A DNA stretch of 64,000 nt, from NCBI GenBank assembly GCA_016906335.1, contig JADEYG010000002.1:879001-943000 (forward strand). The letters are read 5' to 3'. The stretch's first letter is position 1; every line of letters starts with the position of its first letter. The notes under the pieces are model-generated. The model searched no databases, was not told where the DNA came from, and saw only the letters and a list, made by a program, of their open reading frames with translations. Source of the DNA: Novakomyces olei. Taxonomy: Eukaryota; Ascomycota; Novakomycetes; Novakomycetales; Novakomycetaceae. Positions 443-64,000 of this stretch are shown in pieces. Position numbers and translations under genes: made by a program.

Positions 443-1471
443 TATACAGGCTCCTGTGTTTTTTGTGTTTTTTGCAAGGGTCATTGAATAATAAAATACT
501 TTTTATCAATATTAAACCTAGCACCTTTCCATTTATTATTCATTTTTTATTTTCTATTTTTTATTTATTTATTTGTCTATTTTGTGTATCACTTCAAACT
601 AGATTTTTGATTTGTCTTTGCTTTTTAATCTATTTCAGCGTAATAGCATCTACATACGGCAATAGTTGTGGAATTTATAATAAACGTTTAATTTTCTACA
701 CTTTTGTATACGCTCCATCGGTTTAGTGTTCACAGCATTATATTGATCGTATCGCGCCTGTCTCATGTCCGACAAGTGCGATGACAAAAGGCAAGCAACC
801 TGCACAAAAAGATAGCTCGTAGTAGTTTTTTTGTTGTAAACTAAGTTGTTTGCTCCCTCCGTGTCTTTGTAGCTTTTCGGTTCTGTACCTGTTTTGAAAA
901 AATACTGTAGCCCTGCATTGTGCAAAACTATCCTAGCGTTTTAATGAATTTATAGAGCAACGGAATAAGAGCCCATTCTGCTTTTGCAACAGTATGAAAA
1001 CGAAAGAACAGGGATTTTACCTTTTTAAAGGTATTAAGCCACTATGCTGCAAGTGAACTACTCCAAAATATATTTCGTCGTATTAAGGCACTACTTGGCT
1101 ATATTTCAAACAGATTAGAAAAAAAAAAGTTAAAAATCCCTCTTTGAGCTTGTGGAAGATCGCCCACATGAAATATGGTACAGGAACAGAAAAACAGGTC
1201 AAGCATAGTGGGTTGTAATGTCAATAGGACGACGCTCTTTTACTCAACACTGTTCGATTCAAGAGGCAATTAACCCTAACTAACCCTCCATATACTGTAT
1301 CTCCTGAGCATGGTTAATAGTTGATATAATTAATATTCCTACAGCAAGATTGGTAAATAAATAACAAAACACATTTATCGTCGCAGTTTCATTGCCCAAC
1401 GGTAAAAGACCCACCAGCGATAACAGCATCAGCGGTGCCCATGCTTATCGTGAAAGCAAGAGACAGGTAGC
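443..1471. other. intergenic stretch, no gene seen
   Basis: AT-rich spacer. The only structured signal is the telomere-like promoter motif at 1271-1287, about 185 bp before the HDA1 start. Short frames here have no coding character, and I saw no RNA gene. Confidence 0.5.
1271..1287. promoter_or_regulatory. telomere-like promoter motif upstream of HDA1
   Basis: TAACCCTAACTAACCCT: two CCCTAA units whose CCC triplets are 10 bp apart. The same form recurs upstream of TANGO2, TOF1, TOR, BCS1/proteasome alpha2, TFB2 and Aquarius/THOC1 in this window. A Tbf1- or telobox-type factor site is inferred, not shown. Confidence 0.6.
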
Positions 1472-3887
1472 ATGGATGGTTCGATGGATATCGATGCCAA
1501 TTTCGTTAGTCCAGCTGCGATTTTTGGACATCAAGCCCAGGAAGCTGTGAATGCTGCGAAAGACGATGATGCCGATCAAGATATTCTGGCCACGTCTAAT
1601 ATATACACGCCATTGAAGCGCGTTTTTCTTCGATCAGGGTTGTGCTATGACGAACGGATGCGAGCGCACCAAACTGTTGACGTTTTCGATTATCACCCGG
1701 AAGATCCTCGACGGATCTTACGGATTTATGATGCACTTCGAACGGCTGGAATAGCGCCAAATATTCACAAACGACCTGATTCATCTGCAGCGGCAGATGA
1801 CAATTACACTTTTGTTCCTATAACCGCTCGAGAAGCGACACGAGAAGAAATTGTTATGGTCCATACAGCCATACACTATGTCTCTATGCTTTCTACGGCT
1901 CGAATGACACGTGAGCAATTGGTGATTGCCGAAAAGACATCAGACTCTATGTACTTCAATAATGAATCCGCTTTTTGTGCCCTGCTTAGCTGCGGCGGAG
2001 CAATTGAGACTTGTGCTGCTGTGGTGGAAGAACGCGTAAAAAATGCATTTGCCGTGATCCGGCCTCCAGGTCATCATGCTGAACCAGATGCAGCGGGCGG
2101 ATTTTGTTTATTTAATAACGTTGCTATTGCTACCAAAGCCACTATGAAGCGGTACCCTCAAGTGAAAAAAGTCATGATACTGGACTGGTAACGAATCTTT
2201 TTACTTTCCTCGAGTTTTTCGCTTATTTTTATTCAATTTGTATTCAATTTTACTTTCAATTACTATTATTATTATTATTTTGCTTAAGCATTCTCAGGGA
2301 TGTACATCACGGCAACGGTACTCAGCGAGCGTTTTATCGTGACCCCAATGTACTTTACGTGTCGTTGCACAGATTCGACAATGGAGAGTTTTATCCCGGT
2401 AGTTTCTACGGCCATTATACACGTTCTGGTGACGGTGACGGTGAGGGCCGAAGTGTAAACGTCCCCTGGCCTCGAGGAGGAATGCATGATGGCGATTACA
2501 TTTACGCGTTTGATCGGCTCATTATGCCGATTGCAAGAGAGTATGATCCGGATCTTGTCATAATCTCGGCCGGGTTTGATGCCGCTGATGGTGACGAAAT
2601 TGGAGGCTGTCACGTATCACCAATCGGCTATGCACACATGACGCATATGCTCATGAGCTTGGCTAAAGGAAAACTCGTTACTATTCTAGAGGGCGGCTAT
2701 AACTTGGATTCAATTGCTATATCCGCTCTAGCTGTGGCAAAAACAATGCTCGGTGAGCCGCCAGAGCCATTAAAAATATCGACACCGAGCGACGATTCCG
2801 TCAAATTAATAGATCATTGTATTCGGCATCATTCTGTTTACTGGTTAAATTTGCGGCCTTCGTTTAAGGAACGTTTTGTTCCTTTGCCGTCGGCCGAAGT
2901 TTTGCGGGATGTGGCCAGACGCGCTCAAATCACTCAGCTTGAAGATGACTACGGGATGACATCAGTTTTGAGTCCTCCTGGAGAGAAAGATGTACGGATC
3001 ATGGCCACGCCAGAATTCATGTCCAGCAAGAATCTGATGGTGATTATTCACGGGCCGCCAGAGGCTCGGTTGTTACAGCCAAATTCTCTGGACGATCGGC
3101 TGTCATTAAACGATGCTGTAATGGTAGACCCGTCTATGCAGTATGTGCAGTGGGCTTACGATAACGGATTTGGGATCTTGGATGCAAATGCCAGCCGGGA
3201 ATCTGCGGGTAAAGCATCACAGGGACAGAAGCCGTCTGAGGATCTGATGCTCTTTATTTGGGACTATTATATTTCGTAAGTCGGAGAGAATAGGGGAAAC
3301 GATGGGCAATATGATGAATTTGGGAAAAAGGAGAAAATAAGAGAGAAGCAAACAAACCACCAATCAACTTAAAAAGTTTACCATACTAATGATCAAGATT
3401 AACGGATGCTGCTTCAATTATTCTATTCAGTTCAGCTGGGACGGGTTTGAGCTTTGCAAAACTAATAAACGAAAGAAGTATGCTTAAACATTATACCAAA
3501 ATGACCACTGACACTTCCCTTTTTATTTGTCTGCAGCCGTGTTTGATCGTGTCAAGTGCGTGGTCAATATTTATGCTGGTGATCATGTCGACCCACTTCC
3601 GAAATCGGCCAGTGACGATATCGTCCGGCAGTACTTTTTGCGGAGTATTGTGTATATATCTAAACAAAATCCGCTCGCTACCCAGATGAAAAAGGCAAAA
3701 CAACGATTTGGAAGAGTGCTTCAATCTCGTAAGTTCAGGGATCGATAAAAAAATATGCTGATTTTATACGATTTTTTTGCCTCAGTCGCTAATTTGTTCA
3801 GCTTACGATTCGAAAGACCAGATACTCACAAACCACTATAAAGCACTTACAAAGTGGATGCTGGAGCGGCTCTCTAGTTTAATCTAG
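1472..3887 (+). CDS. HDA1: class II histone deacetylase with Arb2 domain (Hda1)
   Basis: NAD-independent, zinc-dependent lysine deacetylase acting on histones H3/H2B in the nucleus. Exons are 1472-2187, 2298-3275, 3398-3477, 3537-3728 and 3802-3887, giving 683 aa (yeast Hda1 has 706). The catalytic domain holds RPPGHHAEP, DVHHGNGTQ and FDAADGD, which supply the charge-relay histidines and the Asp-His-Asp zinc ligands; the DVHHGNG motif is rebuilt exactly by joining exons 1 and 2. Beyond about residue 410 lies an Arb2-like domain, used in yeast for dimerisation and partner binding, which runs through all the small 3' exons. Exon 3 (80 nt) is easily missed: it is recovered by its branch point CATACTAAT, by phase, and by similarity to the Arb2 core. 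The protein starts at ATG 1472, with a second in-frame ATG four codons on. A telomere-like motif lies about 185 bp upstream. Confidence 0.88.
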
Positions 3888-4337
3888 ATTACTATAGACA
3901 TGTCAAAAATATAGTGTAACTTCAGAATTTTCAGCGTTCCACGTATTATTGCCTTTCGTAATATATCAAAGCAGATATAAAAGAATTTTTGTCCGGAATT
4001 TCGCATCATTCAGGATTGAACAGTCCAGAATTTGCAGAGGCATTTATGACGGTAATACTTGACCCTAACCCTAAATTCTTGTGTCTTTGCAATTGGATAA
4101 AGGCCGTACCAGATCGATATTACTGGTAAACTGGGGGCAAACCTCCTTCTAATCCAGTCATAAATTACTTTATTATACGACACGTAAAAGCTGGCATGGA
4201 ATATTGCAGTAGAGCTACATAGTCAAAACTACGCGTTTAATTAAACCTTTCATAAATTAGTTTCGCGTTCGCTACGCGTAAAAGCATCCTTCCATTGATC
4301 ACTGATCCATTCGCAGCAGCGTCCGCGGCTACTTCTG
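3888..4337. other. spacer between HDA1 and MCM6
   Basis: 450 bp, shared by the HDA1 3' end and the MCM6 promoter. It holds a double CCCTAA motif at 4063-4075; I see no gene. Confidence 0.5.
4063..4075. promoter_or_regulatory. telomere-like motif upstream of MCM6
   Basis: CCCTAACCCTAAA, two directly adjoining telomere-type units (6-bp spacing rather than 10), about 265 bp before the MCM6 start. Confidence 0.5.
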
Positions 4338-7138
<2,801 letters not shown>

Positions 7139-7922
7139 ATTGGTTTCTTGCTGGGGCATTGCTATTGTATAATTTATTGCTTTTTCTGCTATTCAGTACC
7201 TTTTGTGTTGAGACTTGGAGTGCATAGATTGTAGAAATTTCGTAGTCGGACGGGTGGTGTAAGGACGGTGTGGTGAGGCAGTATTAGAGTAGAGTATAAG
7301 CATACACGTGGGACAAGTCCGACCGCTCTCACACAATCTTTCCAACAAGGTGCCGAATAACAATTTATATGGAATATCACGTTCATTAATGGAATAACGA
7401 GTACATTGAAATTAACAAAGAGATTGAAATCTACGAATACATTTAGATGGCACAGATACGTTAAACGTGGAAGCCGAGTGACCGCCCTCCACGACTGTGC
7501 CACTTTTTTCTGCGCTCCGGCTAATGCAATGAATGGACTTTTGGGTGACGATTACCTATGATTTTGCGCCATGTACTTGCACTACACAAGATACGGCACC
7601 TGTAAACTACGCGAATCAAGGTCTAAATACTTAATTTGACTAGGCAAGTAGTTTGACTAGACAAGTAGTTTGACTTATTAAATAGTCTGACTAGATAAGT
7701 AGCTTGACTAATTGTGTAAGTGGACCGTACAATCGCGAATGATAATGTATGGGATAACGAAAACCCTGTTGCAGCATCTAATGAATGAACAGGCTTATAC
7801 TGCTCGCATACACGCTAAATAACGGAGACTCGACTTGATGAAACAGTGCGGTAGTCGAGCGTAGTCCTCTGCATAATCGTGCGTCCCGGATCGTACGGTT
7901 CAGCGAAAATCTGACTTGGTGC
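7139..7922. other. spacer between MCM6 and UFD4
   Basis: 784 bp with no convincing gene. Its main feature is the five-copy 17-bp repeat at 7632-7716. No telomere-like motif was seen in this promoter. Confidence 0.5.
7632..7716. repeat. five-copy 17-bp tandem repeat upstream of UFD4
   Basis: Five head-to-tail 17-bp units (consensus TAGTTTGACTAGACAAG) in perfect register at 7632, 7649, 7666, 7683 and 7700, differing at a few positions each. TTGACTA or CTGACTA is the constant core. It lies about 210 bp before the UFD4 start. Confidence 0.85.
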
Positions 7923-10900
7923 ATGGCCAGCGGGAGTTGTGGCAATCAGCGGCAGCAAAAGTCGGGCGGAGCTTTGAGAGCGCGGTAGGTCGTGTAAAGG
8001 CAGACGCCACAGTCGATCGTCTGCTTTCTCCACAGCCGTCTAACTGTAAAGTAGTGCTATTCATCCCAGTCTCAGGTCCGAGTCTACTCTCGGGTCAGGA
8101 AAGCAGCCGGAGCCGGAGCCAAGTCCCACGGAGTCCAGCTCACAGAGTTTGTCCTTTTTATCGACTTCAAGGAAACGAAGTGGAGCTGCCACTTCATATC
8201 GCAATAGCAAGACACCAGCTCGGCAGCCGGCTGCAAAACGAGTAAAAAAGAATAACCAAGAGTCTGCTGAGCCCACTGTTGAACGGGGGAAGCAGGAGTC
8301 TAATCGTGCAACGGCGAACGTAGGCTCTCCTGCAAACCGCCAGAGCGGAGACAAGATGCTTTTTGGCAACGGCAGCAGAACTAGACGGTATATCCATTTG
8401 TCGTAAGGCTGCTAATGAAAATAGGACTACGAGTAGTAGAAAGCGAGGCGAACTTTACGAAAAGGAATTTGATGGTATGCTGGGCGGAATTATTTTATTT
8501 TTATTTTATTTTTATATTTATTTTTAGTTTTAGTTTTATTTTAACATTTTCTCTATTTAATTCTTTATACCATTTGGACCGGTTAACTCATAATTAGAAG
8601 AAGGATCGTCACACTTTACACGGTCAAGAGACGTGCCGGCCGATGAGTACGGTAATGAACTCGCTGAAACGAGTTCGGCTTCCAGCTCAAAGTTTGGCTT
8701 AGATGATTTGCTGGACGCTCGACGTACGAGGCGCAGTTCTCGGCTCAAACCTGCACGAGGTTCAAGATACCAGAATTTTGATAATGAAGAGGAACACAGC
8801 GTCAAATACACGGCTTCGTCTGCGCCGGCTACGGATCCAGTCTACGATTCTTTGGCAACCATGGTGAGCGGTGCAAGTGGGAGGCACAGCAATAATAAGA
8901 AAGACAAGTCAAGGAAGAAGTCGTACGTGGCCGGAGAAAATGATACGTGTGCTCAAATCTCTATTAGTAATGCCAAAAATCGTGGTCTAATGGCAAAGGA
9001 GGCACAGCAATTGCTTCATGCCGATGGCGATAGCCCGGCAGAGGAAGAGGATCTGTATGAAGATGATGACGATTATACTGCGGCTGGACAACGTGATGAA
9101 AGCGATCTTTTAGATTCTCGTGCGGATAACAGTAATGCCTTTGCCATGAGAGACCTCCGGGGACATAATGATGATAATGACCAGGATTTCAGTGATGATG
9201 AACGAGATGAAAATAGCGGTGAAGACGAAGATGACGGCGAAGAGGAAGATCGAAATGACGGAGAAGAAGATGACGATGATGAAGATGACGATGACGATGA
9301 CGATGATGAAGATGAAGATGAGGAGGAAGACGACGAGAGCGAGAATGAAAACGGGAATGATGGTTTTGTGAGAAGATCGCTGCGTGATGAGTTAAGCCGG
9401 GACTTTGATATTCCATCAAGCATTCTGTTATTCGGGATTGGCGGTCAGTGGAATCGAAAAATATCTGCTTTGGCGAACGCCGATGTATATACTCAAATGG
9501 CTCTACTGCAAGAATTCGCAGAAATGCTCTGTATATCCACAGAAGATGTGATTGCAAATGATTTTGCAGTAGACTCGTTTGTAAAGGCGCTAGTCAAGAT
9601 TTTGAGGAATGAAGATGCGTCTAACATCGAGCCTGAACTTTTTCATCTGGCTTGTCTTTGTCTTTCTAATCTTATTGAGGCCTTTCCTCCGGCTACTCAT
9701 TCTTTGGTTTGCGGAGGAGCGGTCCCGGTTTTGTGCAATAAGCTTTTGGATGCCCAATTCATTGATCTCGCGGAGCAGGCTTTAACTACCCTTGAGAAAA
9801 TTTCTATAGATTACCCATCTTCCGTCGTACGTGAAGGCGGCCTCAAAGCCAGCTTAACCTTCTTGGACTTTTTCCATATGAGTGTCCAACGGAAGGCCGT
9901 TTCGTTGGCGGCCAATTGTTGCAGGAATATCCCACAGGATTGTTTTCAGTCAATCTTGGATGTTATGCCAAAGATTCTTGAAATTGTGAAGGGGTCAGAC
10001 CGTGAACTGGTGGAGCAGAGCAGTCTTTGCGTATCTCGCATTATTGAAGTCTTCAGGCACGATAAAGAGAAACTCGACAAGATTGTTGACAAAGAACTCT
10101 TGCTTACCATCTTAAAACTGCTTGAACATTCGACCACCACGTCTCTTAGTCAGAATTCACAAACTTCCTTCCTCAAGCTTCTTGGAGCTATTGCCAGAGT
10201 ATTGCCCGAGGCTGCCGTGATTTTGTTTCAAATTAATGTTCTCGATGTCATTGTACACATTCTCACTGGTGTGTCAAATCATACAAATTCGGTTCAGTCG
10301 GACCAAGATAAGCAAACAACTCAGCTCCAGGTTATGACTCACCAGGCAAAGTCACAAGTTGTTGAGGTTCTGAATTTGATTTGTGAACTGCTCCCAGCCC
10401 CGCTACAAAAAAGCTCTATGGATCCTGAAAAGAAAGCCTTGAAAGCAGAAGAGGCACAAAGGAGTATTGAGCTGCTTGAAAAAGTTTCTGCAGAAAGGAA
10501 CAAGTTTGTCTTGACTTTACTGCCCATACTTATCAATATTTACACATCAACAGCAAGCTCAACTATCCGTCAACGAATCATCAATGCTCAATTAAGATTG
10601 GTCATCAATATGGACGATACGGCAATGTTGGATATGCTTGAACATGTTTCGTTTGGCACTTTTCTCGCAGAAGTGCTTTCGCGTGATATTTGGTCACCAT
10701 CCGGAATTGCAGCGTTACAGCTTTCAGAGAATCTATTGAAGAAGTCACCAAAGCATTTTTACTTTTGTCTTTTACGTGAAGGCGTAATCCATGTTGTGCG
10801 CGAGATCTGTGCCTTTGATATGCCCTCCGCCAACGCAAACGGCATATATAGTATTGTGCCGCCTTTGCGCTCGGAGCAAGCAAATTATGTCGCCTCTGCA

Positions 10901-13399: not shown

Positions 13400-13775
13400 T
13401 AAGGGATATATCAAATATGGTTTACATGTCATTTGTTTTTGTTTAGTATATGCTTTTTGTTTTATTGGTGCGCATACATATACTTTATGGTCATTGACAA
13501 TATATTTGCAGACAGATATATTGCGAGTCCAGATCATTTAATTTTCTCATTACAAATTGAACTCGTTCACTTGTAGATTGTGCTACTACAAATTGGCCAA
13601 AGACGTAGAAATCGAGCAGATTTATACAGCCCAATTAATGTGACCGACCCAGTTAAGCGGATCGCTGTCGATCCATAATTTAAATCCGCGCGGTTGTACG
13701 AGCCTGAGGCAAACAAATACACTTTAAAGTACATACACGTGTGCCATGTAACACTTTTTAATCCCGTTTCTTATC
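13400..13775. other. 3' spacer between convergent genes
   Basis: 376 bp between the stop codons of UFD4 and the acetyltransferase gene; it should hold both 3' UTRs. No other feature seen. Confidence 0.5.
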
Positions 13776-15706: not shown

Positions 15707-15785
15707 TGTAGGAAACGCCGTTGAGGATTGTTGTGTATAACAAATCTCTGCGACTATTTGTATTCCCTATAATACACGTGATCTT

Positions 15786-16661: not shown

Positions 16662-16785
16662 ATTCAAGGATTGTGGATGAGCGAGCAAATACAGCTAGAA
16701 TTATTTTTTATTATCCACTTCAATAGTTTAATGTTTGCTTTGCCAAAGCTTTACACAATATGTTACAGTGGAACCCAAACTTATA

Positions 16786-16824
16786 TTAGGTTTAGGGTTT
16801 GTCAGGGTTTGCTAGGGTTAGTTT
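16786..16824. promoter_or_regulatory. cluster of telomere-like motifs in the REX4/TFIIS-domain divergent promoter
   Basis: Four GGGTTT/GGGTTA-type units in about 36 bp (at 16788-16822), with units spaced about 10 bp apart. The 378-bp divergent promoter (16662-17039) holds nothing else that I recognise. Confidence 0.65.
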
Positions 16825-17039
16825 GGTAAATCTGGATTAGTTGATGCAAGAATACACACATAGATAGCCTACTTAGCCTATCTTAATATATTATCCGTCT
16901 TAGCACAATATACGTCCGGCGAGGAATAGTTTAAACCCTAGTTTCAAGAATCAACAGCGTATTATATTAATCAGCGCCAATGCGCTATTAGTAATGTTGT
17001 GTTTATACTGATCTACTATCGCACAGCATCAATCGCCAC

Positions 17040-18851: not shown

Positions 18852-19744
18852 GATTAGCCTTGGTGCTGCGGAAAGCTGCGGCTAGATTTGAAATTTGCTT
18901 TGCCAAAGCACAAGTACCAAAGCTCTGGTATTCAACGTGCGATGGTCTATACTTGCACTGAATTGTTTGGGCCGCTAACGGTTGATCTTAACCCCGCGCC
19001 CAAGTACAGATAGGTTATGATCTATCATTGACTAGTGCAATAAATAATATACTGTGTGAGTAATATCACCAAGAGAACGATGATTTGATACGTGACCAAA
19101 AACAGAATTACTGGTATATTATTCCGAATAATTCTGTCGATGGGGACATTGGCGCCGCCATTGGCTCGACGACACTAATCGCCAGCTTTACGTAGAACGC
19201 GTTGAATGAACCAAAAAAATCATCTATTAATCTCGCGGACAAGAGTCACAAGGCTTATGTTGACTGTAGGATGCTGGCTGGCTCTATACAAATTTACTGT
19301 TATCCATTAAATACATCCAAGTCTACATTTACCGCTGCTCTTTACTGTCAAAATTATGGAAACATGTCACCGCGTCTTGGGTATATGATGTGAGCGCTAT
19401 AATTAAAGAAAAAAAGCGCAATTAAATAAAATGCAATGGGACAAATATCCAAACTCGAACAAACAAAAGAGAATGAATTGGAAAAGACCAATCCAAAATT
19501 TTGCGTACAGATGACAAGAAACATGCTATAGTCAAGTTCATCAACTGGCTGCTTCTCAGAATGGTAGACATAGCCTGCTTCGGCGTGACCACAAAGGTTA
19601 TTGCTGTGCTATCATTAATCTAGGGTTAGTTAGGGTTATGCAGGAGTATTTTAATAAATGGCAGCATTATTCAAACTATCTTATATTGAAAGCAATAATT
19701 ATAGTTATGCGCCTTGGCACATGAAGCAATGCACTTCGTGAACG
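18852..19744. other. divergent promoter region between REEP gene and TANGO2
   Basis: 893 bp without a supported gene; a 63-codon frame at 19202-19393 has no coding character. A telomere-like motif lies at 19621-19638, near TANGO2. Confidence 0.5.
19621..19638. promoter_or_regulatory. telomere-like promoter motif upstream of TANGO2
   Basis: TAGGGTTAGTTAGGGTTA, the 10-bp spaced form, about 107 bp before the TANGO2 ATG. Confidence 0.65.
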
Positions 19745-30198: not shown

Positions 30199-30788
30199 AC
30201 CAAAGCAAAGACCTAGTGAGTCGTTTGCTACTTTTGAAATCTTGAATCACAACAGACGTATTTCATTTCAACAGCCAATGTTCATAATTGTCGCGTAGAC
30301 TTTAGGCAACGCGACGCGTTAAATTACTAAATAGATTTATTTGAGATTAGAATACAATCAAATAATACAAATATCCAAGTTATTTTTATACCTATTAACC
30401 CTAACTAACCCTATCGATATTGGTTGCAAACTTCACCGATCAGTCGACAGAATGCAAAGCGTTTTGAGCTCTTTTACGGTTAGAACATGATGGGATTATG
30501 AGAATTGCAACAAAAGGAACATAGCAGCAAGCTTTGATACGAGCGTATCAGTTAGATCCACGATGTTTATGCAATCTGCTAACACATATCGGAATCAATT
30601 CTAAAAGACAAATTAACTCCAAATCGCACACAAAGCCATAGAAATAACAGATAGCTTAAATAATAGACGAAAATTAGAGGCAATGCAAATTATCATAAAT
30701 TGTACACTATGAAATCTAATTCGACCAAGCTTATGTAATAATCCCTTTAAAGACCCTGAATCAAATTATCTAGCAGTAGTCCAAAAAA
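30199..30788. other. spacer between TOF1 start and TOR stop
   Basis: 590 bp. Holds the TOF1 promoter with the motif at 30396-30414 and the TOR 3' UTR. No gene seen. Confidence 0.5.
30396..30414. promoter_or_regulatory. telomere-like promoter motif upstream of TOF1
   Basis: TAACCCTAACTAACCCTAT, 10-bp spaced form, about 200 bp before the TOF1 start. Its other neighbour is the TOR stop, so it most likely serves TOF1. Confidence 0.65.
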
Positions 30789-38051: not shown

Positions 38052-38542
38052 TGCGAAACTGTTGATGCGTGTTCCATCATGACTCGCACATAATATCGAT
38101 ACACAAGTAGGCGTGTGTTGGCGAAGCGGTCAATATGCCGTAGTGTTTGATCAGTCAACCGTTCAGCTATAAATAATTGTGAATAACACACTCACATAAT
38201 TAGATATATCGATGGAATATGCTTATTGTATTTCCCGATAAATCAAATCACAACCCTAACTAACCCTAGATTATCTTTGAACTATTTAGTTCTGTGTTTC
38301 GTAGTATAATAAAAGTATATCGGCTTACATCTATACTCTTCCAAATTCTTAGAATTCATGAATTATTCGGGTCCAATAGACGGCTAATTAATATATGGCG
38401 GCACGAATTGGCAGATGCAGTCTCCTCCGTCTAGTGCATGTCATGGCAAGATATCTTTAATATAGCTAATTATGCAAAAAACACGAACCACAGGGGCATG
38501 ATGCAATGCTACAATGATTTCAAATTTTCTATGCAATGCGTC
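38052..38542. other. TOR promoter and BCS1 3' region
   Basis: 491 bp between the TOR start and the BCS1 stop. Contains a telomere-like motif at 38252-38268 and no gene. Confidence 0.5.
38252..38268. promoter_or_regulatory. telomere-like promoter motif upstream of TOR
   Basis: AACCCTAACTAACCCTA, 10-bp spaced form, about 200 bp before the TOR ATG, the same distance as at TOF1. Confidence 0.65.
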
Positions 38543-40095: not shown

Positions 40096-40114
40096 TAACC
40101 CTAACTAACCCTAT
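40096..40114. promoter_or_regulatory. telomere-like motif in the BCS1/proteasome alpha2 divergent promoter
   Basis: TAACCCTAACTAACCCTAT, about 137 bp from the BCS1 start and 165 bp from the alpha2 start. The promoter (39960-40278) holds nothing else recognised. Confidence 0.65.
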
Positions 40115-43574: not shown

Positions 43575-44287
43575 TATTACAAGAACCTGTCGCGAACGCT
43601 CCCTCGTTTAGGGTTTAGATTGCAGTTACGAAATATATTAAATCGTTATTCTATGCACAGTAATTGTGTGGAGAAGGATTGACCAAAAGCCTGTAAATAT
43701 CGTAAAATATTGCTAAGCAATGCCTACTCGATGTGCCCGTACGACCAAATTATATGGTACTGCCCACATTTTTATCTCGCAAGGCTTACCTCCAGTTTTG
43801 TGGATACACGATTGAGGCTGTAGCCCCAGAGTAGATAGGTATATATAAATAAATAAATAACTGGTAATAGTCAATTATCACTTACGGCTTGATTCATGTT
43901 AAACCATGCTGAATAACCCAACACCTTCCCAACCCTCAAAATATATCCGTACTGTGCAATCTAACTTTAGCAGCGATCTCCCTCCGAAACATTAGACTTA
44001 ACCTTCAAATCCAGCTATTATTGTAAATGTACAAAAAGCCAGATTACACATCCAGATTACAATGTGTAAAACACAAGTGTCGTTTACCCATCGTAGACCA
44101 CCGCACATCTAACGGTCGAATCCAATTGCTGGATTGGTACCTTTTCCCAGATATTAGTAGTAACGATACGTGCAAGAGACGACAAGTAGGCGCGTACGTC
44201 TCTTGTTACCATTAACGCTATACTTTATACACAGTAATATGGCTTGAGAGCGTGGTAACCTCCCTCGTTCTCAGCCTACTCTACGCT
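43575..44287. other. divergent promoter between thioesterase and RhoGAP
   Basis: 713 bp. A telobox-like GTTTAGGGTTTAG at 43606-43618 lies 32 bp upstream of the thioesterase start. No gene found. Confidence 0.5.
43606..43618. promoter_or_regulatory. telobox-like motif next to the thioesterase start
   Basis: GTTTAGGGTTTAG, the closest of these motifs to a start codon in the window. If an upstream exon exists, it may lie inside the 5' UTR or an intron instead. Confidence 0.4.
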
Positions 44288-48807: not shown

Positions 48808-49012
48808 GCTACGCTACGCAACACATTCGGTGAGCGCGCGTCAGGGTTTGAGTCCGCTACAAATGCAATGACAAATTAAAACAATAATATTAAGAACAAT
48901 CACAATAATAACATTACACACAGCACTAATAACAAAGCCTTTATTTATTTTTTATCTTATTTTTATTTTTATTTTTATTTTTACTTTTACTTTTATTTCT
49001 AGTTCCAGTTCT

Positions 49013-49046
<34 letters not shown>

Positions 49047-50339: not shown

Positions 50340-50905
50340 GTTTCCTGTCCTACAGTATAGCGGAAGATTGGCGGTGGATCAAGGATGCAACTTTTGTGGA
50401 GTCGGACTGCTTCTTTAATGCCCAAACGTCGGTTTGTCAGGCAAAACGTTGTATGGCAAGCAAAATGTTTCAATATGTTTATAACAAGAATGTACTATTT
50501 TCGTTACAGCATAATACCATGTCAATAGGGTTAGTTAGGGTTAATTATTGGACTAGAATAATCTAAACTTGCCAGAGTACCTTTGGCGTCCTTTAACAAA
50601 CAAAACTATGCAGCTTTACAGAGTGTACAAAGCGCACAGAGTATCTTGGCACCTTATGTCAGCACATTATATTGGCACTATCACGAGCATTGGTCCCTCC
50701 CTCGTAAAGTAGGTGTAGGAAATTGGCGCTCAACGCCATTTATTGCTTGTGAGAAAAGGAAAAGGCATATTTTTATCGTATATTACTTAGAAGCTACTTG
50801 CCGCTATCATGCCTTAACTGCTCGTATATATCGTCATATTATTTAACAGTGGCCATTGGCCGCGATAAGCAAAAAGCGGGCGGAAAGGCGTCTCACTTTT
50901 GAGCT
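50340..50905. other. spacer between RIB5 and CPS1
   Basis: 566 bp on a same-strand junction. Contains a telomere-like motif at 50526-50543; no gene seen. Confidence 0.5.
50526..50543. promoter_or_regulatory. telomere-like motif between RIB5 and CPS1
   Basis: TAGGGTTAGTTAGGGTTA, 10-bp spaced form, about 365 bp before the CPS1 start and 187 bp after the RIB5 stop. Confidence 0.6.
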
Positions 50906-52917: not shown

Positions 52918-53312
52918 TTGGTTGTTGTAGTTTCATATGAAATTTAGAAGATGATTAGACGTAAACTGTCGAGAAGAGGGAGTGGTAATCAATAATAGTT
53001 ACTAAACATGATACTTCATTTAAGGGTTTGTTAGGGTTTTTCGTCGACCTTTATTAGCTGTAGTTTATAACCCTAACTAACCCCAATCCTGTTGGGAGAT
53101 GCTGTATATCCTGTACATTAGCAACATGGCGATGGATACACAATAAGTATCGAATTGGTCGTAATTTGATATCGCTCCATACAGCATACTAAAATAAATA
53201 TATGTTAGAGGACATCTATCAACTATCTTGAATCCTGGATAACGATAATGCGTACGTTTTACGAGGGGAAAGGCATTCTGTGATCGGACTCAGCCGTAGA
53301 TAAGCTGCGGAA
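52918..53312. other. spacer between CPS1 and TFB2
   Basis: 395 bp with two telomere-like motifs (53021-53040, 53067-53084) in opposite orientation; no gene seen. Confidence 0.5.
53021..53084. promoter_or_regulatory. pair of opposed telomere-like motifs upstream of TFB2
   Basis: AAGGGTTTGTTAGGGTTTT on the plus strand, then 26 bp later ATAACCCTAACTAACCCC, the same 10-bp spaced motif on the other strand. They lie 230-290 bp before the TFB2 ATG. Confidence 0.65.
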
Positions 53313-55014: not shown

Positions 55015-55114
55015 CTGTATGCGATATAGATTAATTGTGTTATTTGTCCTGGCTTGACGGTATTGTTTTTTTATTAATATAATCAAATGATATGGTTTGG
55101 CTCTAGCGGCTTGG

Positions 55115-58100
55115 CTATTGTGCACCTTGCTGGAGGCCTTGCTTTTTCTTTGTCATTTCGTAAACATATTGCGATAAATGCTGTACATTCACCATTGATG
55201 TCCCTTGTACTGATTCGTTTACCTTTCGTCTTGAGGGAAACATTTCGCCTGTGACGAGCTCGAGAGTTTTTTCTGGAGCACTGGGCTCTAAGCGCTTAAG
55301 CAGTTGGGAATAGCCGGGATGATTTTCAAACAATGATCTTCGTAATAAGCAGTATAGTCCGCGTCTTGCTAACGACATGGCCCCCGTTGCGAATGAAGAG
55401 TCCGACAAGATGCCGAGAGATTTGGTGCGAGTCATAGAAACGATAATGTCTTAAAAATAAGTCAGTATACTCGCCTGGATCAACAAAATCAATAGCAAAC
55501 AAAGTATCAAACAAAAATCAAATCAAATCATAAAAAATGAATTAAAATATAAATTGAACACAATCGTCCGTGAAACCTTCTTTATTTGACTTACAATCAT
55601 TCGGGCGCAGAACTGAATCAAACGTCGAGATCACAATCGGCGATCCGATAAACGATACTCTTGAGCATCGAGTATTCGCAATGTCGCGAATAAGAGCCAC
55701 CTGTGAAGCGAATGGGGCCAGAATGGTGATTCGCTCACGGGGATAACCCAATAGCCGCATGTATTGATAAAGCGCCACGCAATACTCGGCCTCGCCTAGA
55801 TTTTGGTAATAATTTGGTTGATTCTCAGTTTCTCCTTCGTTTTCAAAATCTTCCACAGCAATAAACTGAGTCGTGTATTTGAATCCTGCATTTGCATTGT
55901 TTCCGAGCCGGCTACTTTCTGCATATAATTCGGGACGAAGCAATTTGCAAATTTCGGGCCGTCTGTTGTATTCAACAACAAGCTCACGGCTGTGCCCTGC
56001 ATCAACTGCACGGGTAAAGAGATTGTTTGCAGAGACAAACTCTAGATCAATAGCCTGAAAGTTACACAGCTTTGGTCGGAATGACTTGGTCCCAAAGAGA
56101 ATCAGCTTGTCTAGCTCGCGTCCAAAGGCTTGAAGTATTGTACAAAGTTCCGCATCCAGAGTTGATGATGAATCCATCAAGACGATATTGTCTACGGCAA
56201 TTTCGAGACTATCGAGTTCGTTATACTACGCATTAGATTCTTAATTTGAATAAAAGAAAAGCTGGAAAAATTCGGGATATTAATAATTAGTTTGTTTATT
56301 GATGGGGGAAAAGCAAAAACAAAAAAAAGAGTTGAACAACTTACGTGAGACCGAATATTCTCCATTGAAATTAAAAGTACGTTGGCCGTAGCTTTCAAGT
56401 AATGCTTGATTTTTTCGTTCATTTGGCGCAAAAGCTCAAACGGCCGCAATGATTCCAACTCAGAAAACATTGTTCCCAGGATAGAGCGAGCCTCTGCTAG
56501 ACCGGCATTGTTTTTGATTTTCTGTTGAACAAACTTTACTACAAATTAGCAGTTGAGCATAATGATAAGAGATACCAATTTGATAATCGTTCTTGGACGC
56601 ATCAGTCTTATTGAACGCAGGCAAAATGTACGATTGATAAAAATACCCAGCCACTTCAATTGAGGCACCGTGATCACCAAGGATTCCCAAGTGTGAGGCT
56701 AACTGCTGTACGGTATTTAAAAGTTTTGCGCTGTGTACCTGCAAATGATATTAGTAATAAAACGTAGGAATGCACGCTTACCTGTAAAGCTCTCAGGCGA
56801 GCATCTATATTTAGCGGATTGTGCTCGTTGTAACTGTTATGGTATAATGCTGTGATTCGGAGTAGATCCACTGTGAAAAAAATTTAGTAATTTATCTGGA
56901 GGGCGATACTTACTTCTATTGTCCAAATTATTGGTAAATGCTTCAACGTCTCTATCCGTGGGGAAGACAACAAGAGAACGCGTCCGTGTTGATTGAAGAG
57001 TTAAGTTTGTCAGTAAACGAGCAGCCAGGAATGTCTTTCCTGTTCCTCCTTCTCCGCAAACAACAGAAAATTTGTTCTCTAGCACAAACTTCAAAGCCTT
57101 CAGCTGAGATGTGTTGAGAAAATGACCAATCTGATTTGAGGGTATGTCGCTTGAAATCATGAGTTTCTTTTCTTTATCTTCTACGACAAAGCCGCTATTC
57201 TCAGCGTCTACAGACTCAGGCACATTCTAGAAAATTCAATGTTAGCAAAAGCTTTGTACATATCAATGGCCATACATAATGTTCATAGACTTGCTTCAAC
57301 TGATTGAGATTGCGGAACTTTTCGTGCAATTGGTAAGACCTCGGGCTATCCGTTGTATCCCCATAATCACCGTATCCCAGTAATATTTCTTTCATATTTG
57401 TCGGAATGGCACATTTGGAAAAACTAACCTGCTCCAACAGCCTCTGCAGTATTATACTGTCCTGTGCGTTTTTAGAAGCCTTTACTACGATATTCATTTT
57501 AGAATATATATCAATGTCGTTTTCGACTAGTAGATTTTTATCCCTTGCATACTGTACGGGATCCAAGGATACACGCATCACCCGATTATTTCCAAGGCGA
57601 GACGGGTCAAACGTATCCGAAGACTCGTCAATTACTCGGTTTCTCGAATCCAATAGTTGATGCACTGTTCCAACTCTAAGCGCTTTGACACCAGCCTCGC
57701 TCGCAAAATTAGGCGATCCAACAGGGAAGGCTCCATGGTCCGGCTTCCATTTACCTTCCAACGTCATGATAAATACAAAGTCTCCCATTTTCAATTTATC
57801 CCACACATCTCTCATGGAGTCGCTCACACCGTTTAAATTGTACTTCAAATCTGCATAAACAAATTGGGGCCAAGTATCACCAACTTTTGGAAGCGCCGCC
57901 TCGATGTTCCTGCGTCTCGTCAACATCAAAAATTCTAGAACCAAAAAAATAAATAAAAACATAACAAAATATAAACAAGATTGAAGTGTTTATAAGACTA
58001 GAGTTGTATAGCTGACTAATGGCATATGACAAGCAATAAAATAGAGACAGGGTCTTTCCAAGATTGAATGCAAAAAAAAAACAGATTTATTTGTCATCTT

Positions 58101-59803
58101 ACGTGATCGGCGATATTTTCATGGCCATGTTGTGCGAGTTGGCCCAAACAGTTGTTCTAGAACTTTGAGCGAAAGTAGGCCGAATCTTGCGCAAGACATC
58201 AACCAGATATTTGCGTAATGTACACTCGGCTCTAAGCTTAAGATAGGCCGATTGCCTTGTTAAAAAGTCTTCATAAAACAAATACTGAGCGGTTGACGTG
58301 AAAGAGCCAAAGGGAAGGTCTCGTTTCTTTTCAAAAGCATTAACAAGGTCGTTCTTGAATAATCCCTGTCTTCGTAAGCATATGAAAGCGGTATAGATAC
58401 ATTGAAAGTACCTCATTTAAGTTTAACCGTAGATCTGCGGGAAAGACTCTGTCCTTGTAGAACAAAACCATGCACGACACAAGAATCTCTTTGTGGCCGC
58501 TCAAAAGAGGTCGCATTGTATCAGAGATATTTAGAACATTGTTTTTCTCATTAATAGTAATCAGCTCCTCGATACTCAGGCCCTCAAAGGCAGTTTGTAG
58601 TTCATTCTGACTAGATGCAAGAGCATAATTTGAAAGAGCGTATACTTTAAGACGGTCAGGAAACAGCTGTAAAAGGTTCCGCTGAAGACTGGAAATATAA
58701 AGTCCGTGAGCTGCGCGATATTCGTTCCTTGGAAGGTACCGCCCATCGACGTCATCCACAGGGATGAAAAGGTACGTCTCGAAAATACAAACCTCATGAA
58801 CAAACTCCGTCCTAAATGTATTAGTTTTGATCAGATAGCATGATTCATACAAATTTTGCTTATACAAAGCCGAGCCCCTTAGAAGCCCCAGAACAGGGAG
58901 ATGCTGAAGTATCTGCCGCGTGTATCGAGATGTAGGAAACTGGTAGAGAAGAATATTTAACAGACGCACAACAGATACAATGAATTTTTGTTGAGTACTG
59001 GTTGTATTCTCAGACGCGTAGAGAAGCGAGCAGACCGAAGAGCATAGCTGAAACAGCCAATTAGTAGGAAACTCTTGGACTTCACGTTGCCGGCGGCCGG
59101 CAGCACTTTGTTTCTTTTGAGCAGCTCTAAATGCCTTTCGTACGGCAGGAACTTTTTGTAGCTTGCTTTCAAGTAGAGGTGCGGGTAGATGCTTCAGCAC
59201 TAGCGCCGACACGTACGGCGCACAGGCTCTTCCCACAGAAGCATGAGCAAGACAAAACTGAAATTGCACTGATAAAAACTCAACAAATTGCTGACGCAGA
59301 AATAGATCAATCTCATCGTTTATCGAATTGGTCGCTGCATACTCAAAAACAGTGCCTATTTCTTCAGCCGAAACGTAGGCATCTAGTTGTGTTAACGGTT
59401 TATCATAAAAGCGAAACGTACCTAGCGACTTTATGCAATTAGCAGCGCGGCCGTTGATAGATAAAATCAAGCCAATTGTGGCGTGTTCATCGCCCAGTGC
59501 AATACGTGGAGCAAATATACTGTGCATTAGCTTTTAGTTAATTGGACAAGCGTACCGACTGCTCAATCCTGAGTCGTAAAGAGCCGATCGCGCGTCATTG
59601 GGACACGTCGACTGCTGGCCGATTTTCGCTGCTTCTGCACAGATAGTCGAGCCCTTTTCAGAGTCGGCTGCTACTTGCAGCGATTCAGTACATAGTCGAT
59701 TTATCGAAATCCGTGTCGCTTCGGCAGCATTGTCGCGGGAGCCAGTCGCAACCATTGCGCGAGACTGTGTGTCATGTGCTCTACTATTATTTTCAACAAA
59801 CAA
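55115..59803 (-). CDS. Aquarius/Cwf11-like spliceosomal protein with a degenerate helicase core
   Basis: Orthologue of the intron-binding spliceosome factor Aquarius. Ten exons (complement 59556-59803, 58412-59519, 58103-58353, 57276-57909, 56914-57226, 56782-56870, 56576-56738, 56345-56538, 55595-56225, 55115-55449) sum to 1321 aa (human 1485). Matches run along the whole length: ARM domain; LPFGSFTSTAQYLFYEDFLTR; WPQFVYADLKYNL; EILLGYGD; QNLGEAEYCVALYQYMRLLG; NDYIIVSMTRTKSLGIL. Walker A is intact (GEGGTGKT, near residue 804), but motif II is MDSSS where EEAA or DEAA is expected, motif III (GDHHQLPP in human) is FGTKSFRP, the QGQQ of motif V is gone, and motif VI SRAR is SLAR. The N-terminal exon fits by phase only; the start could be 59803 or the ATG at 59755. 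Confidence 0.85.
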
Positions 59804-59860
59804 ATCAATCTATACTAGACAAGAAAAAATATTGTTTTAGATCCAAATTTGAGATTTTAT

Positions 59861-59880
59861 TTAGGGTTAGTTAGGGTTTA
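59861..59880. promoter_or_regulatory. telomere-like motif in the Aquarius/THOC1 divergent promoter
   Basis: TTAGGGTTAGTTAGGGTTTA, about 58 bp from the Aquarius start and 110 bp from the THOC1 start, inside a promoter of only 186 bp. Confidence 0.7.
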
Positions 59881-59989
59881 AAGTATTTGCTCTGGAGTAA
59901 ATGGATAGCCTAGATGGTTCAATAGAAATTACCTTGGCTCGTACTCTTTGATATACGCTTTAGCCTTTGGCAAATGCTCTTTCCGCAAT

Positions 59990-62361
59990 ATGAGCATTGC
60001 TGACGTGGATGCAGCAGTAGCATCGTGTATCAGCCAATCGACCAACGCTTTACTCTCCCAAGATATCGGCAATTTTGACGAGAGCTGTATCAACAATATT
60101 TTGAGTTCCGATGCTGTGAAACATTTGCGCGAATCATCAAATCAAGAACTCAAATTCTTCGTAGAGAATGCGTTTCGTGGTCGATTATGTGCTTCTGTAG
60201 TATGTGCATTTCTGCTTTGCTTTTATTTGTACTAATTTGCAGAGCGATGACCAACCGCGTGCTGATAAAATTATAAACTATTTTGGCATCATGGATGCAA
60301 CATTTCCCTTTGTCTACCACGGTAAGGAGAGCGGTACGGTTTGTAACTAACGAGCGAGATTTGTGTGACGAGTCTTTAACTCTTTTATTGCTGGAGGACT
60401 GTGTTGGTATTCATTTAATAGAGGAATGCGAGCAACTGTTCTCTTATCTTGAAACACGACGCGACCCCTTGACACGAAATATCAGTGGTGCTCGGGGTCG
60501 TGGGCTCGTTCTTTTAAGATTATGCAATGATTTAGTACGGCGTTTATCAGTAGCTGAGAATGCCGGATTTAGAGGACGAATTTTGGTCTACTTGGCCCAA
60601 GTGTTTCGCCTGAGCGAACGCAGTGGTGTTAATTTAAGGGGAGATTATCACACGGAAAACAAGACGATTGTCGAACCTGCGCAGACTGCACCGGCAATCG
60701 AGCCAGGAAATGAGTCATCCACAGAGCCAATAGTAGACAATACTGAGCAATTAACAGCTGAGCCAGCGACTGAGACTTTATCAAGGGAGCAGTCGTCAAT
60801 AAACGACTCGGGAACCCCTTCATCCCAAATGCAGGGCTCTGTTGAACATGGTGAATTGCAGGAAGCGACTCCAAGTGAAACTGAGCCGGCCGATTTTTAC
60901 GAAGTTTTGTGGGCACTACAAGAATTCTTTTCAAATCCTCCCGTCTTATACTCTGAACCGGAAAGGCTGTCTTGGGTACACAAGTCTATAAATACGGTTC
61001 TTGATCGATTTGATCAAGTTCGGTCGTCGACGAATTTCATTTCTACGAATTTATCAAACACAAAGGGTTTTTCCGACAAGATTACGCCGAAATATCTCAG
61101 CAATCGGGAGCTTTTAAATTTAGAGGTAATTTTATTTTTTATTATATTTTTATGATATCCGTTTTCGATATTCGGTATAATAAATTACAATATTTATACG
61201 ACGGCGTATCTGTTAACACTTTAGGTATTTGATGCCACATTCCAGGTGCAAGTATCCATACAGATATTGATACTTCTCGAGCATTTGAGATCGCTTACGG
61301 CTGAATATAAGTCTCGCTGGTCCGAGATTACAACACCAAACCGATCTGTCCTTGTAGCCTTTACTTTACCCGAAGGAGATAAAGAATGGATTGAATCCAT
61401 GATAGACAAGACAAATACTTTGTTGCGGAACACACTTTATAGCGTTAATGGGAGGTATGATCAACTAGTGTCATGCGAACTAGAGAGCGATGCACGGTGG
61501 GTCAAATGGAAGCAAGAAAACTGCCCTGCTGTGGAACTGCCCAGGTTTGATGTACAAGCGCTCACAGTCGCTCAGAACAAAAGTCTTCCCCAATCTCAGC
61601 CAGTTTTAAAATCGTATTGTTTCCCCATGGGAACATCGACTCTGGCACGTTTGTGGGATCATGGCAGCCCTGCATCGATGGCCGAGTTAAAAGACCACAA
61701 ATTTTACGCTGTGCCAGACATTGAAGAGTTTCTTGAAGCAGTTAAACGCGACTCTGAGCTGCTTTCTAGTGAAAAAGATCCACCTTCGGCATCAGATCGA
61801 ATGAGTCTTGTTGAATCTCGAGCGAGCAACGAGTGGCGTGCTCTGCGTGTTGCCAGCAAAACTGATCTCGCAGTTTTCAAAAACATAGGGGACGGGAGCC
61901 TTTTGCTGCTTTTTGAGGCCAAGAGCAAGTTAGCAGATGCCACGGAAATGGCTGCCAAACAAACGGAGCAACAGAGCGATCAACAAGAAGACAGTGAAAT
62001 ACTGGCAACTGATGCTGAAATCGAAAACGGTCATTCTCCAAGCACAACAAAGGCAAATGAAGCGACGGAGGAGAAAGAGCGCTTGGACTTGAAAGATAGT
62101 AGCGGTACGCGTCTACAACCGACAATTGAAAATGGTGAAAAGGACAAGACTTTGCATGATCAAGAGCCAATTAGTGTGCAGTCTGTGTCGGAACCGGTCG
62201 ATGAAAAGACAGGAGACGAACCCAAATCTGCTTTTGTCGATAACAGTCATGAAAATGTTTCGCATTCTCCTCAAACGCTGCATGCTAAACGGAGAGCCTC
62301 GGAAGATGCGGAAAATACTACACCGACTAAACGGTCAAAGACATCGGCAACAGAAGGCTGA
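59990..62361 (+). CDS. HPR1: THO complex subunit 1 (Hpr1/THOC1)
   Basis: Subunit of the THO/TREX complex that couples transcription to mRNP packaging and export and limits R-loops. Four exons (59990-60199, 60243-60321, 60359-61125, 61225-62361) give 730 aa (yeast Hpr1 752). The diagnostic block is GLVLLRLCNDLVRRLSVAEN, FRGRILVYLAQVFRLSERSG and VNLRGDYHTEN, closely matching THOC1. Later come LSNRELLNLE, VSIQILILLEHLRSL and a final Trp-rich helical part (SDARWVKWKQENCP). Two low-complexity acidic stretches follow and a basic C-terminus (KRRASEDAENTTPTKRSK) looks like a nuclear signal. Introns are 43, 37 and 99 nt. It shares a 186-bp promoter with Aquarius, another mRNA-maturation factor. Confidence 0.9.
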
Positions 62362-62390
62362 TCAAAACAAAATTGTATAGTCAAAAAAGA

Positions 62391-63329
62391 TTAGTTATTA
62401 AGCTGTTGCTGCAATTTTTTAAGGTGCTCTTGTACTCCCTCGTACCCTTCCGGTACAGCTTGCTGTAACTTCTCAGCTGGGTCGTCCATTTCTAGATGGT
62501 CAGAGGCATCAGGAATAAACAAAGGAGCATCAGACGCTCCGCCTGCCTGTGGAGCTGATTGTGCAGGTGCTTTTGTTGGCCGTGCCGGCGGCGAGTTTGC
62601 TGTCGGAGATGATGCTGACACTGGGCCTTGAGCACTCTTGATCTCTGTTTGACCGGGCAGAGCTGTTGTAGAATTAGACAAGAAAGGCTTGTTTGTAGCA
62701 TCAAAAAACCGTTGAGCTTTAGTATGACCCCAACCTTCTACGAGTTCAACATCTTGTGGCAGAGCATTGACAGCGCGACGAACTGACCCAAAATTGGCTG
62801 CCAGGCTTACTGCATCAGTCCTGTTTACTCCACGCACAGCTGTGAAGGCGTCTTGCAGCCGACTGGCATAGTCAGTCGCATGGTTTTCCATAATAGCCGT
62901 GGGTGGAGCATGCTCGTAGCTCTTAAAAGTCTCCAAGTAACGAGCTGCTTCTGCTGGTGTCCAAGCCAAGAATAGTGTAAATCTATTAACAATACACGTT
63001 TTGCCCAGTTCGCGTAACGGCTCTTGATGGTGTTCAATATCGACTATTACCAGCAAAATGCGCAATTCAAAGCGAGCGCGGCCCAAAGAGCTCATGCGAT
63101 TGTATATGTACTCCGGATGAAGTCGATGGTATTGCAACGAAAGGAACAGGGCACACGAAGTCGCGCCCACTACGTAATCCGCCAATGTTTCTCCGTATTC
63201 CCATGCGACATTGCGTATATACTGTAGCAATGGGTTACCTTTTTGTCGGGCGTTTACAATAATTGAGTTCCCACCGGCATTGCGAGCCGCGGCTTCACTG
63301 GCCGATTTGCTAGGCGGCAGTTGTTCCAT
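62391..63329 (-). CDS. RAD10: Rad10/ERCC1 structure-specific endonuclease subunit
   Basis: Non-catalytic partner of Rad1/XPF, which cuts 5' of DNA lesions in excision repair and interstrand crosslink repair. A single exon of 312 aa (yeast Rad10 210, human ERCC1 297). The central nuclease-like domain is clear: SIIVNARQKGNPLLQYIRNVAWEY, YVVGATSCALFLSLQYHRLHPEYIY and the conserved aliphatic block ILLVIVDIEHH, followed by FTLFLAWTPAEAARYLETFK. The nuclease active-site residues are absent, as in all ERCC1 proteins. The tandem helix-hairpin-helix domain follows (LTAVRGVNRTDAVSLAANFGSV and the hairpin near VEGWGHTKAQRFF). A disordered Pro/Ala-rich tail of about 95 residues is longer than usual. Its stop is 29 bp from that of THOC1. 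Confidence 0.94.
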   Translation of the reverse strand: MEQLPPSKSASEAAARNAGGNSIIVNARQKGNPLLQYIRNVAWEYGETLADYVVGATSCALFLSLQYHRLHPEYIYNRMSSLGRARFELRILLVIVDIEHHQEPLRELGKTCIVNRFTLFLAWTPAEAARYLETFKSYEHAPPTAIMENHATDYASRLQDAFTAVRGVNRTDAVSLAANFGSVRRAVNALPQDVELVEGWGHTKAQRFFDATNKPFLSNSTTALPGQTEIKSAQGPVSASSPTANSPPARPTKAPAQSAPQAGGASDAPLFIPDASDHLEMDDPAEKLQQAVPEGYEGVQEHLKKLQQQLNN

Positions 63330-64000
63330 GCTCTATTAATAGTCAATCATGCTTTAAAAGGTACATTGATCAGCCGGATGAAGAATTAGAGAGTATATAG
63401 ACGCTTAGATTTCCCCTGCAGCGTTTTCAGTCTAGTATACGGCCAAACCTCCAACGTGTGCTCGGCTAATGAGTCTTGAGCCGGTACATATTTCGACCTG
63501 TACGTGCTCTACGCCGTAGGTTTGGTCATGCTCGTGTTAGTTGACCCTAACCCTGAAATGATCAAGACGGTAATTTTTGCTGTTAGGGTTATTATAAGAA
63601 GCCATATCGGATTTGTCCAGTCGGCTAGGGTTATCTCGATTAACGCCAATTGAGAATTCATATTCAGTTGCACATATTGCGCGCTGACTTGGTGGCTGCA
63701 CATTTGGCCGTGCAATTAAACACGTATTACTGGTACTATTCATACCTTGACTTTGAAAGAAATATCTCTACGAATGAAACCGACCGATACTGGCAATTTT
63801 TAAATTAACATTAGTTAAATGTTTGATCAACTCATAAGTCTTCCTAGTGAACACTCTCAGGCAAACATAATGCTGAACAAAAAGCGCGAATTAAAATTTA
63901 GCATATTACAGTTCCAGCATTTGGCAATTACGCATATTACTAATTCAAGGAGCAGCATGTGTGCAAATCACGAGATTATCATCTATTTACGTCAAAAAAG
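63330..64000. other. RAD10 promoter and right edge of window
   Basis: 671 bp with no supported gene. Three telomere-like motifs lie at 63543-63554, 63583-63591 and 63624-63633. Confidence 0.5.
63543..63633. promoter_or_regulatory. three scattered telomere-like motifs upstream of RAD10
   Basis: GACCCTAACCCTGA at 63543, TTAGGGTTAT at 63583 and CTAGGGTTATC at 63624, starting about 214 bp before the RAD10 ATG. Each has one or two units rather than the 10-bp spaced pair. Confidence 0.5.

Follow-up and report, generated by a model that had tools for sequence, protein, structure and literature searches.

The 64,000-nucleotide stretch of the Novakomyces olei genome analysed here (the window; C2:879001-943000, where C2 is a contig of an assembly of 14.34 Mb and 15 contigs) carries a recurrent 17-bp element, TAGGGTT-N3-TAGGGTT, in which two half-sites stand 10 bp apart in direct repeat. 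The element lies between genes, mostly on their 5′ side, and corresponds to two half-sites of the genome's own telomere repeat, with which it is identical in sequence in its commonest form. We consider it reasonably likely that TAGGGTT-N3-TAGGGTT is a general promoter element and a candidate site for a Myb protein of the telobox type, the Tbf1 orthologue being the likeliest. A first-pass annotation had described the element as a telomere-like promoter motif; that observation is confirmed as real, and its interpretation is supported in part.

Eleven matches to TAGGGTT-N3-TAGGGTT with up to two mismatches were found in the window, in clear excess over shuffled controls (100 dinucleotide shuffles gave 0.21 matches on average and never as many as 11). 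The exact 16-mer TTAGGGTTAGTTAGGG occurs once, at 59861, and the core GGGTTAGTTAGGG is present in eight exact copies, three on the plus strand and five on the minus strand. Among same-strand AGGGTT pairs up to 40 bp apart, the spacing is exactly 10 bp in 10 of 11. The sites were said to lie between genes, and none of the ten AGGG pairs at 10 bp overlaps coding sequence in a window that is at least 64% coding; of the 26 TAGGGTT half-sites, 24 are noncoding and two coding, as judged with a mask built from our own list of open reading frames (ORFs), many of which have Pfam support. For comparison, four stretches of the genome unselected for the motif, 40 kb in all, held no pair with up to one mismatch and one pair with two; in 54 kb surrounding 17 loci of Myb-type genes and TERT, a single pair with up to two mismatches occurred. 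Because the unselected stretches resemble the window in GC content (0.41-0.45), base composition was rejected as the cause of this regional excess. An Rfam scan of the window at the gathering threshold returned no match.

The suggestion that the telomere repeat of this genome might itself be a 10-mer proved right, since tandem GGGTTAGTTA arrays terminate the contigs. A 33-base run of the repeat has 62 matches in the genome. Arrays lie at both extremes of C1, C2, C3, C4, C7 and C9, at the left of C5 and C15 and at the right of C12, and they occupy the highest positions among the matches listed on the small contigs C8 and C10; the right ends of C1, C8 and C10 are presumed in this placement. The unit is TTAGTTAGGG, with TTAGTCAGGG variants, and among the 15 units of the C1 left telomere seven carry TTAGTTA and five TTAGTCA. 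The core 13-mer has 314 genome matches, telomeres included, against one for its reversed control, and TERT is encoded in the genome. Literature searches with the letters of the 10-mer returned, among the titles listed and judged by title, no telomere of this repeat.

Spacing was tallied on C1, the one contig with a complete match list. Its interior contains 69 half-site pairs, of which 39 have a 3-bp gap (with AGT as the spacer in 19 and other spacers in 20) and eight a 5-bp gap, with no other gap represented by more than five pairs. Ten of the 39 gap-3 pairs are borne by repeats (at loci L013, L014, L025, L062, L066 twice, L067, L070 and L072 twice). The 29 pairs that remain, 14 of them with a spacer other than AGT, compare with an average of 1.2 for the other gaps (Poisson tail 3e-11), so that the claimed preference for 10-bp spacing holds on C1 with non-telomeric spacers included. 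Genome-wide, the pattern TAGGGTTN{0,20}TAGGGTT gives 534 matches, telomeres included, against five for the reversed control, and the inverted arrangement of half-sites is found at 28 places.

The distribution of substitutions indicates constraint on the half-site. On C1, with the first half-site and the spacer fixed and the second AGGG core left free, there are 19 intact cores and one core with a single substitution; with both half-sites fixed, there are 14 spacers with a single substitution. After removal of two long terminal repeat (LTR) copies and merging of one double, this becomes 11 distinct loci with spacer substitutions against one with a core substitution (p ~7e-4), a comparison in which some of five remaining variant rows could be repeat copies and which covers the right-hand AGGG core only, the outer T/A letters being more variable. 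Across 31 aligned interstitial sites, conservation stops sharply at TA...TT, with little beyond; a third half-site is present in the 10-bp register in 0 of 31 and at 6 bp in 3 of 31. Because the boundaries are sharp, a third half-site is missing and substitutions are biased to the spacer, we read this as the pattern of a protein-binding site with two half-sites rather than of decaying scars.

Gene context was annotated around three sets of sites: L008-L030, which comprise 22 distinct C1 loci of the AGT type; L061-L090, with 26 distinct loci whose spacer ends in a base other than T (from the first 30 of 41 matches); and nine regions of the window. At least one flank could be anchored by a Pfam match in 15, 19 and 9 of these, respectively, giving 43 regions, which were tallied by hand; 14 loci with no anchored gene, or with a transposon ORF as the sole anchor, were set aside. 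The anchored gene is the nearest with a Pfam match and not necessarily the immediate neighbour. In 36 of the 43 assessable regions an anchored gene starts away from the site, and thus a gene start usually adjoins it, as had been proposed. The other seven regions have 3′ ends alone anchored, six of them with no anchor on the other flank and one (L009) between convergent genes. Counted by flank over the window and the other loci, 45 anchored flanks are 5′ and 21 are 3′ (p 0.002), or 38 and 17 without the LTR family (p 0.003). Of the non-LTR regions anchored on both sides, 19 in number, one is convergent, seven are divergent and 11 are tandem (p 0.03 for the convergent class). Motif orientation relative to the gene is mixed, as assessed by eye.

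For the 17 sites in the window and at other loci with a readable predicted ATG, the median distance is 165 bp (range 68-364). The first-pass annotation had placed the sites mostly 60-270 bp before a start codon; 12 of the 17 fall within that range, which is a little narrow. The genes flanked by sites are diverse, among them HDA1, TOR, Timeless, BCS1, proteasome, Tfb2, Aquarius, THOC1, CENP-H, MTHFR, PI3K and LTV1. The idea that housekeeping genes are the targets fits several of these, but the class is broader, since a site also occurs in the 5′ flank of a ferric reductase, an MFS transporter and an alcohol acetyltransferase-like gene. A promoter role of the element is likely.

Telobox-Myb proteins of the kind predicted are encoded in the genome. 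One is a Tbf1 orthologue of 722 residues (C3:1165173-1166525), in which a TRFH domain (PF08558, E 7e-61) and a Myb domain (QLKDKARN) share one frame and whose best PDB matches are the structures of S. pombe trf1/Tbf1 and S. cerevisiae TBF1. This protein is a good candidate for the binder. The second, L060 (C9:828965), carries a telobox Myb (VDLKDKARN) at its C-terminal end. Pfam gave no match to L060 at E <=0.01, none of 7994 scored candidates qualified as a homologue at E <=1e-3, and its predicted structure (pLDDT 37) was not used. L060 could be a diverged Taz1. In the mechanism we favour, two Tbf1 protomers, each with a TRFH dimerisation domain and one C-terminal Myb, would read the two half-sites one helical turn apart, and the element in promoters would act as a general regulatory element. 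Since GGGTTAGTTA is the telomere repeat, this half-site would recur every 10 bp along the telomere array, of which the promoter element would be the minimal two-half-site unit. The protein bound at promoters may then be the one that coats telomeres, and it would be expected to affect transcription.

Several points weigh against this reading. Where two genes stand in tandem, the site is not clearly closer to the start than to the stop of the preceding gene, and for many genes no first exon was found. The contrast between 5′ and 3′ flanks is moderate, and the 50:50 null used for it is naive and generous, since intergenic DNA is often longer on the 5′ side; the anchored gene may, moreover, not be the immediate neighbour. 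The site at L009 is well anchored and lies between convergent genes. Binding by Tbf1 or L060 and an effect on expression are predictions from sequence. TRF-type dimers with flexible linkers need not fix the spacing of their sites, as for S. cerevisiae Tbf1, whose sites follow no rule of spacing or orientation (PMC2834713). Finally, the sites clump on a scale of about 200 kb, which would not be expected if they were simply promoter elements of housekeeping genes.

This clumping is most evident on C2, where loci per 100-kb bin up to 1.1 Mb number 3, 1, 1, 0, 0, 0, 0, 5, 8, 7 and 2 (variance/mean 3.21, p ~3e-4). The interval 757-944 kb, inside which the window lies, holds 20 of the 29 C2 loci among the matches listed (to 1.11 Mb), and 293-757 kb holds none of the exact 13-mers. 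A second clump lies at C1:1.18-1.36 Mb, and the 13-mer is overdispersed on C1 with repeat rows dropped (variance/mean 2.37, p 0.0014). Because the sites clump along chromosomes, a role at the level of domains, such as replication timing of the Taz1/Rif1 type, is a live rival. In S. pombe, which belongs to the same subphylum (Taphrinomycotina), Taz1 sites consist of paired internal telomeric repeats, through which Taz1 and Rif1 act on late origins. By analogy, a Taz1/Rif1-like complex on twin internal telomeric repeats near origins would set late domains of 100-200 kb, and the promoter position of the sites would reflect intergenic origins. The clumps on C2 and C1 and the presence of L060 as a second telobox-Myb protein agree with this. 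However, the exact 17-mer alone is not overdispersed on C1 (p 0.21), although it is on C2 (p <2e-4) and C3 (p 0.017); L060 has no Pfam or homologue match pointing to Taz1; and the scarcity of convergent regions (1 of 19) is not needed by an origin element. The paired telomeric repeats inside chromosomes resemble those of S. pombe, but the sites here prefer 5′ gene flanks. Overall, we regard replication timing as an unlikely explanation.

A different reader of the promoter element was also considered, namely a protein of the Tay1/Teb1 type with two Myb domains in one chain, which could read the 10-bp pair by itself. Tay1 has two Myb domains and binds the 10-bp Yarrowia repeat, as described in the accessible part of PMC6746865. 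Such a gene was not found here among 21 PF00249 matches or with a Tbf1 Myb query, though introns could hide one. The excerpts of PMC4839565 describe the S. pombe HisBox, bound by Teb1 at histone genes, as two AGGGTT half-sites in direct repeat with 6-bp spacing. Two AGGGTT half-sites in direct repeat in Taphrinomycotina promoters are thus common to both systems, but the Teb1 site has a 6-bp step and belongs to histone genes, whereas the 10-bp element described here is found at other genes. The upstream DNA was inspected for five of eight histone-fold matches. The four canonical histone promoters among them (L091, L092, L094 and L095, for H3, H3/H4, H2B and H2B) have Teb1-like AGGGTT boxes 90-170 bp upstream of the ATG, which speaks for a reader of this type; two of the boxes differ by one letter from the S. 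pombe HisBox, with its 6-bp spacing. None of these four promoters has a 10-bp pair, their boxes being single or of the 6-bp type, and L093, which has a CENP-A-like N-terminus, shows no AGGGTT box near its start. Because the histone promoters bear AGGGTT or 6-bp boxes without a 10-bp pair, the data suggest two site geometries, with perhaps two readers. With the known Teb1 step of 6 bp and no Tay1-like gene detected, we find it improbable that a two-Myb protein reads the 10-bp pair.

Neutral interstitial telomere scars, left by telomerase at repaired breaks and later decaying, would account for the identity between the commonest form of the element and the telomere. Such an origin is disfavoured by the sharp boundaries, the fixed phase and the lack of a third half-site in register noted above, together with the concentration of substitutions in the spacer (11-14, against one in the tested core). 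In addition, TTAGTCA forms 5 of the 15 units of the C1 left telomere, yet it appears in 0 of 9 non-LTR matches in the window. We therefore hold the scar explanation to be quite improbable.

Transposons do carry the element. When flanks were compared all-against-all (E <=1e-8), many sites with TGC or AGC spacers were found to share 40-130 bp of flanking sequence, defining an LTR-like family. The window copy (16761..16905, plus strand, 145 bp) has TG...CA termini and a perfect target-site duplication of 5 bp, CAATA, and is a solo LTR in a divergent promoter region, between an RNase_T gene (REX4-like, minus strand) and a TFIIS_M protein gene (plus strand); it bears three half-sites at 10-bp steps, the middle one imperfect (16793..16819, plus strand). 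Among LTR copies found by the same script, L090 has a matching 5-bp repeat at its ends, L066, L073 and L074 have none, and L075 has none or a shorter one. L013, L014 and L025 share another repeat of about 450 bp, L014 lying beside a copia-type gag ORF, and an AGT pair next to L066 is likewise inside an LTR copy. That LTRs bear the same element fits a promoter function. It could also mean that transposons spread the element and seeded promoters with it, but the other AGT-spacer loci lack common flanks, save for one match between L023 and L024 (74%, 219 bp), and of ten window places compared 16793 alone has them. Transposon dispersal was accordingly accepted for many sites of the TGC/AGC class and rejected for most AGT sites, whose flanks are unique; as a general cause it is very improbable.

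Two further arrangements of half-sites were observed. At C7:38723-38901 (L087-L089), 39 kb from the telomere, two inverted LTR-like copies with telobox arrays stand about 150 bp apart. A near-palindrome of half-sites (gap 8) occurs at C1:1760071, C2:621508, C4:1410038, C7:2617348, C8:25993, C12:1361145 and C13:3259; some copies are near contig ends and some internal, and it is probably a dispersed repeat.

Within the window, the first-pass annotation had listed 13 places. Those at 1271, 16786, 19621, 30396, 38252, 40096, 50526, 53021, 53067 and 59861 are indeed 10-bp pairs, although the one at 16786 sits inside the transposon solo LTR. The remaining three are not: the half-sites at 4063 stand 6 bp apart, 43606 has one half-site alone, and a loose cluster occupies 63543-63633. 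Gene names in the window such as Tof1, REX4, RIB5 and similar are those we presume from Pfam matches. Exact elements are found at 19621..19637 (plus strand), upstream of TANGO2 (plus strand; first exon not found); at 30397..30413 (minus strand), 211 bp before the putative ATG of the TIMELESS/Tof1 gene (minus strand); at 38252..38268 (minus strand), upstream of the TOR kinase gene (minus strand; first exon not found); at 40097..40113 (minus strand), between the divergent genes for BCS1 (minus strand, 343 bp from the ATG) and a proteasome subunit (plus strand); at 50526..50542 (plus strand), 364 bp before a putative M20 peptidase ATG and 3′ of a riboflavin-synthase-like gene; and at 59862..59878 (plus strand), between divergent Aquarius (minus strand) and THOC1 (plus strand), 107 and 112 bp from their respective putative ATGs. 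Elements with one mismatch lie at 1272..1288 (minus strand), 184 bp before the ATG of an HDA1-like deacetylase at 1472, and at 53022..53038 (plus strand) and 53069..53085 (minus strand), inverted relative to each other and both upstream of the Tfb2 gene, whose first exon was not found. Outside the 10-bp class, the half-site pair TTAGGGTTAGGG, spaced by 6 bp, lies upstream of MCM6 (4063..4074, minus strand), a single TAGGGTT half-site with no pair is at 43609..43615 (plus strand), and an imperfect 6-bp pair with two single half-sites (63543..63633) is found upstream of Rad10/ERCC1 (minus strand).

The MCM6 protein of the window has its best named relatives in the Taphrinomycotina, at 65-67% identity, and one metagenome protein matches it at 81%. 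In a midpoint-rooted tree, the window protein and the metagenome protein fall within a Taphrinomycotina group of moderate support (94/89), with no named species close to them, and we place the genome in this subphylum, as a distant relative of fission yeast. A 10-bp telomere repeat is described for the Yarrowia clade of the Saccharomycotina, TTNNNNAGGG, in the available text of PMC6746865, where no gene-promoter role for it is named. The two systems are alike in having a 10-bp tandem unit at chromosome ends, and TTAGTTAGGG fits TTNNNNAGGG, but Yarrowia belongs to a distant group. According to the portions of the sources at hand, Taphrina has a TTAGGG telomere (PMC7036362) and S. octosporus has TTGGGTTAC (PMC10085805). 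Since these two differ from the 10-mer and the host lies in the Taphrinomycotina, the 10-mer telomere probably arose independently of that of Yarrowia.

Telomere-like promoter motifs are also found in plants, whose teloboxes are single AAACCCTA units bound by other proteins. The Tbf1 sites of S. cerevisiae and C. albicans are closer, with TTAGGG-type half-sites before many genes and a Tbf1 that has a TRFH domain and one Myb; the C. albicans site, in the passages of PMC2834713 that deal with it, is an 18-bp palindrome, TTAGGGN6CCCTAA. Here, by contrast, the half-sites form a direct repeat at 10 bp, which is the telomere period, and of the 28 inverted TAGGGTT/AACCCTA places none has the 2-bp gap of C. 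albicans, in a search pattern that fixes the inner TT and AA and covers one form of the palindrome alone. What appears new, as far as these sources describe the known Tbf1 and Teb1 sites as palindromic, unordered or spaced by 6 bp, is a 10-bp direct repeat that matches a 10-bp telomere.

Because the promoter element matches the organism's own telomere repeat, these data suggest that a telomere-end-binding protein may also act on genes. Fungal telomere repeats and the proteins that bind them change fast, and Tbf1, Teb1 and Rap1 all have gene-regulatory roles. More tentatively, it is possible that the telomere repeat and the gene-regulatory element form one co-evolving code, in which a single telobox-Myb protein would read both, promoter spacing would have followed the telomere unit to 10 bp, regulatory or timing domains of 100-200 kb would be set up, and LTRs would use the element too. 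In both its sequence and its 10-bp step the promoter element reproduces an unusual telomere repeat, and this makes it testable whether one protein holds telomere and promoter sites together, and how a gene network responds to a change in the telomerase template.

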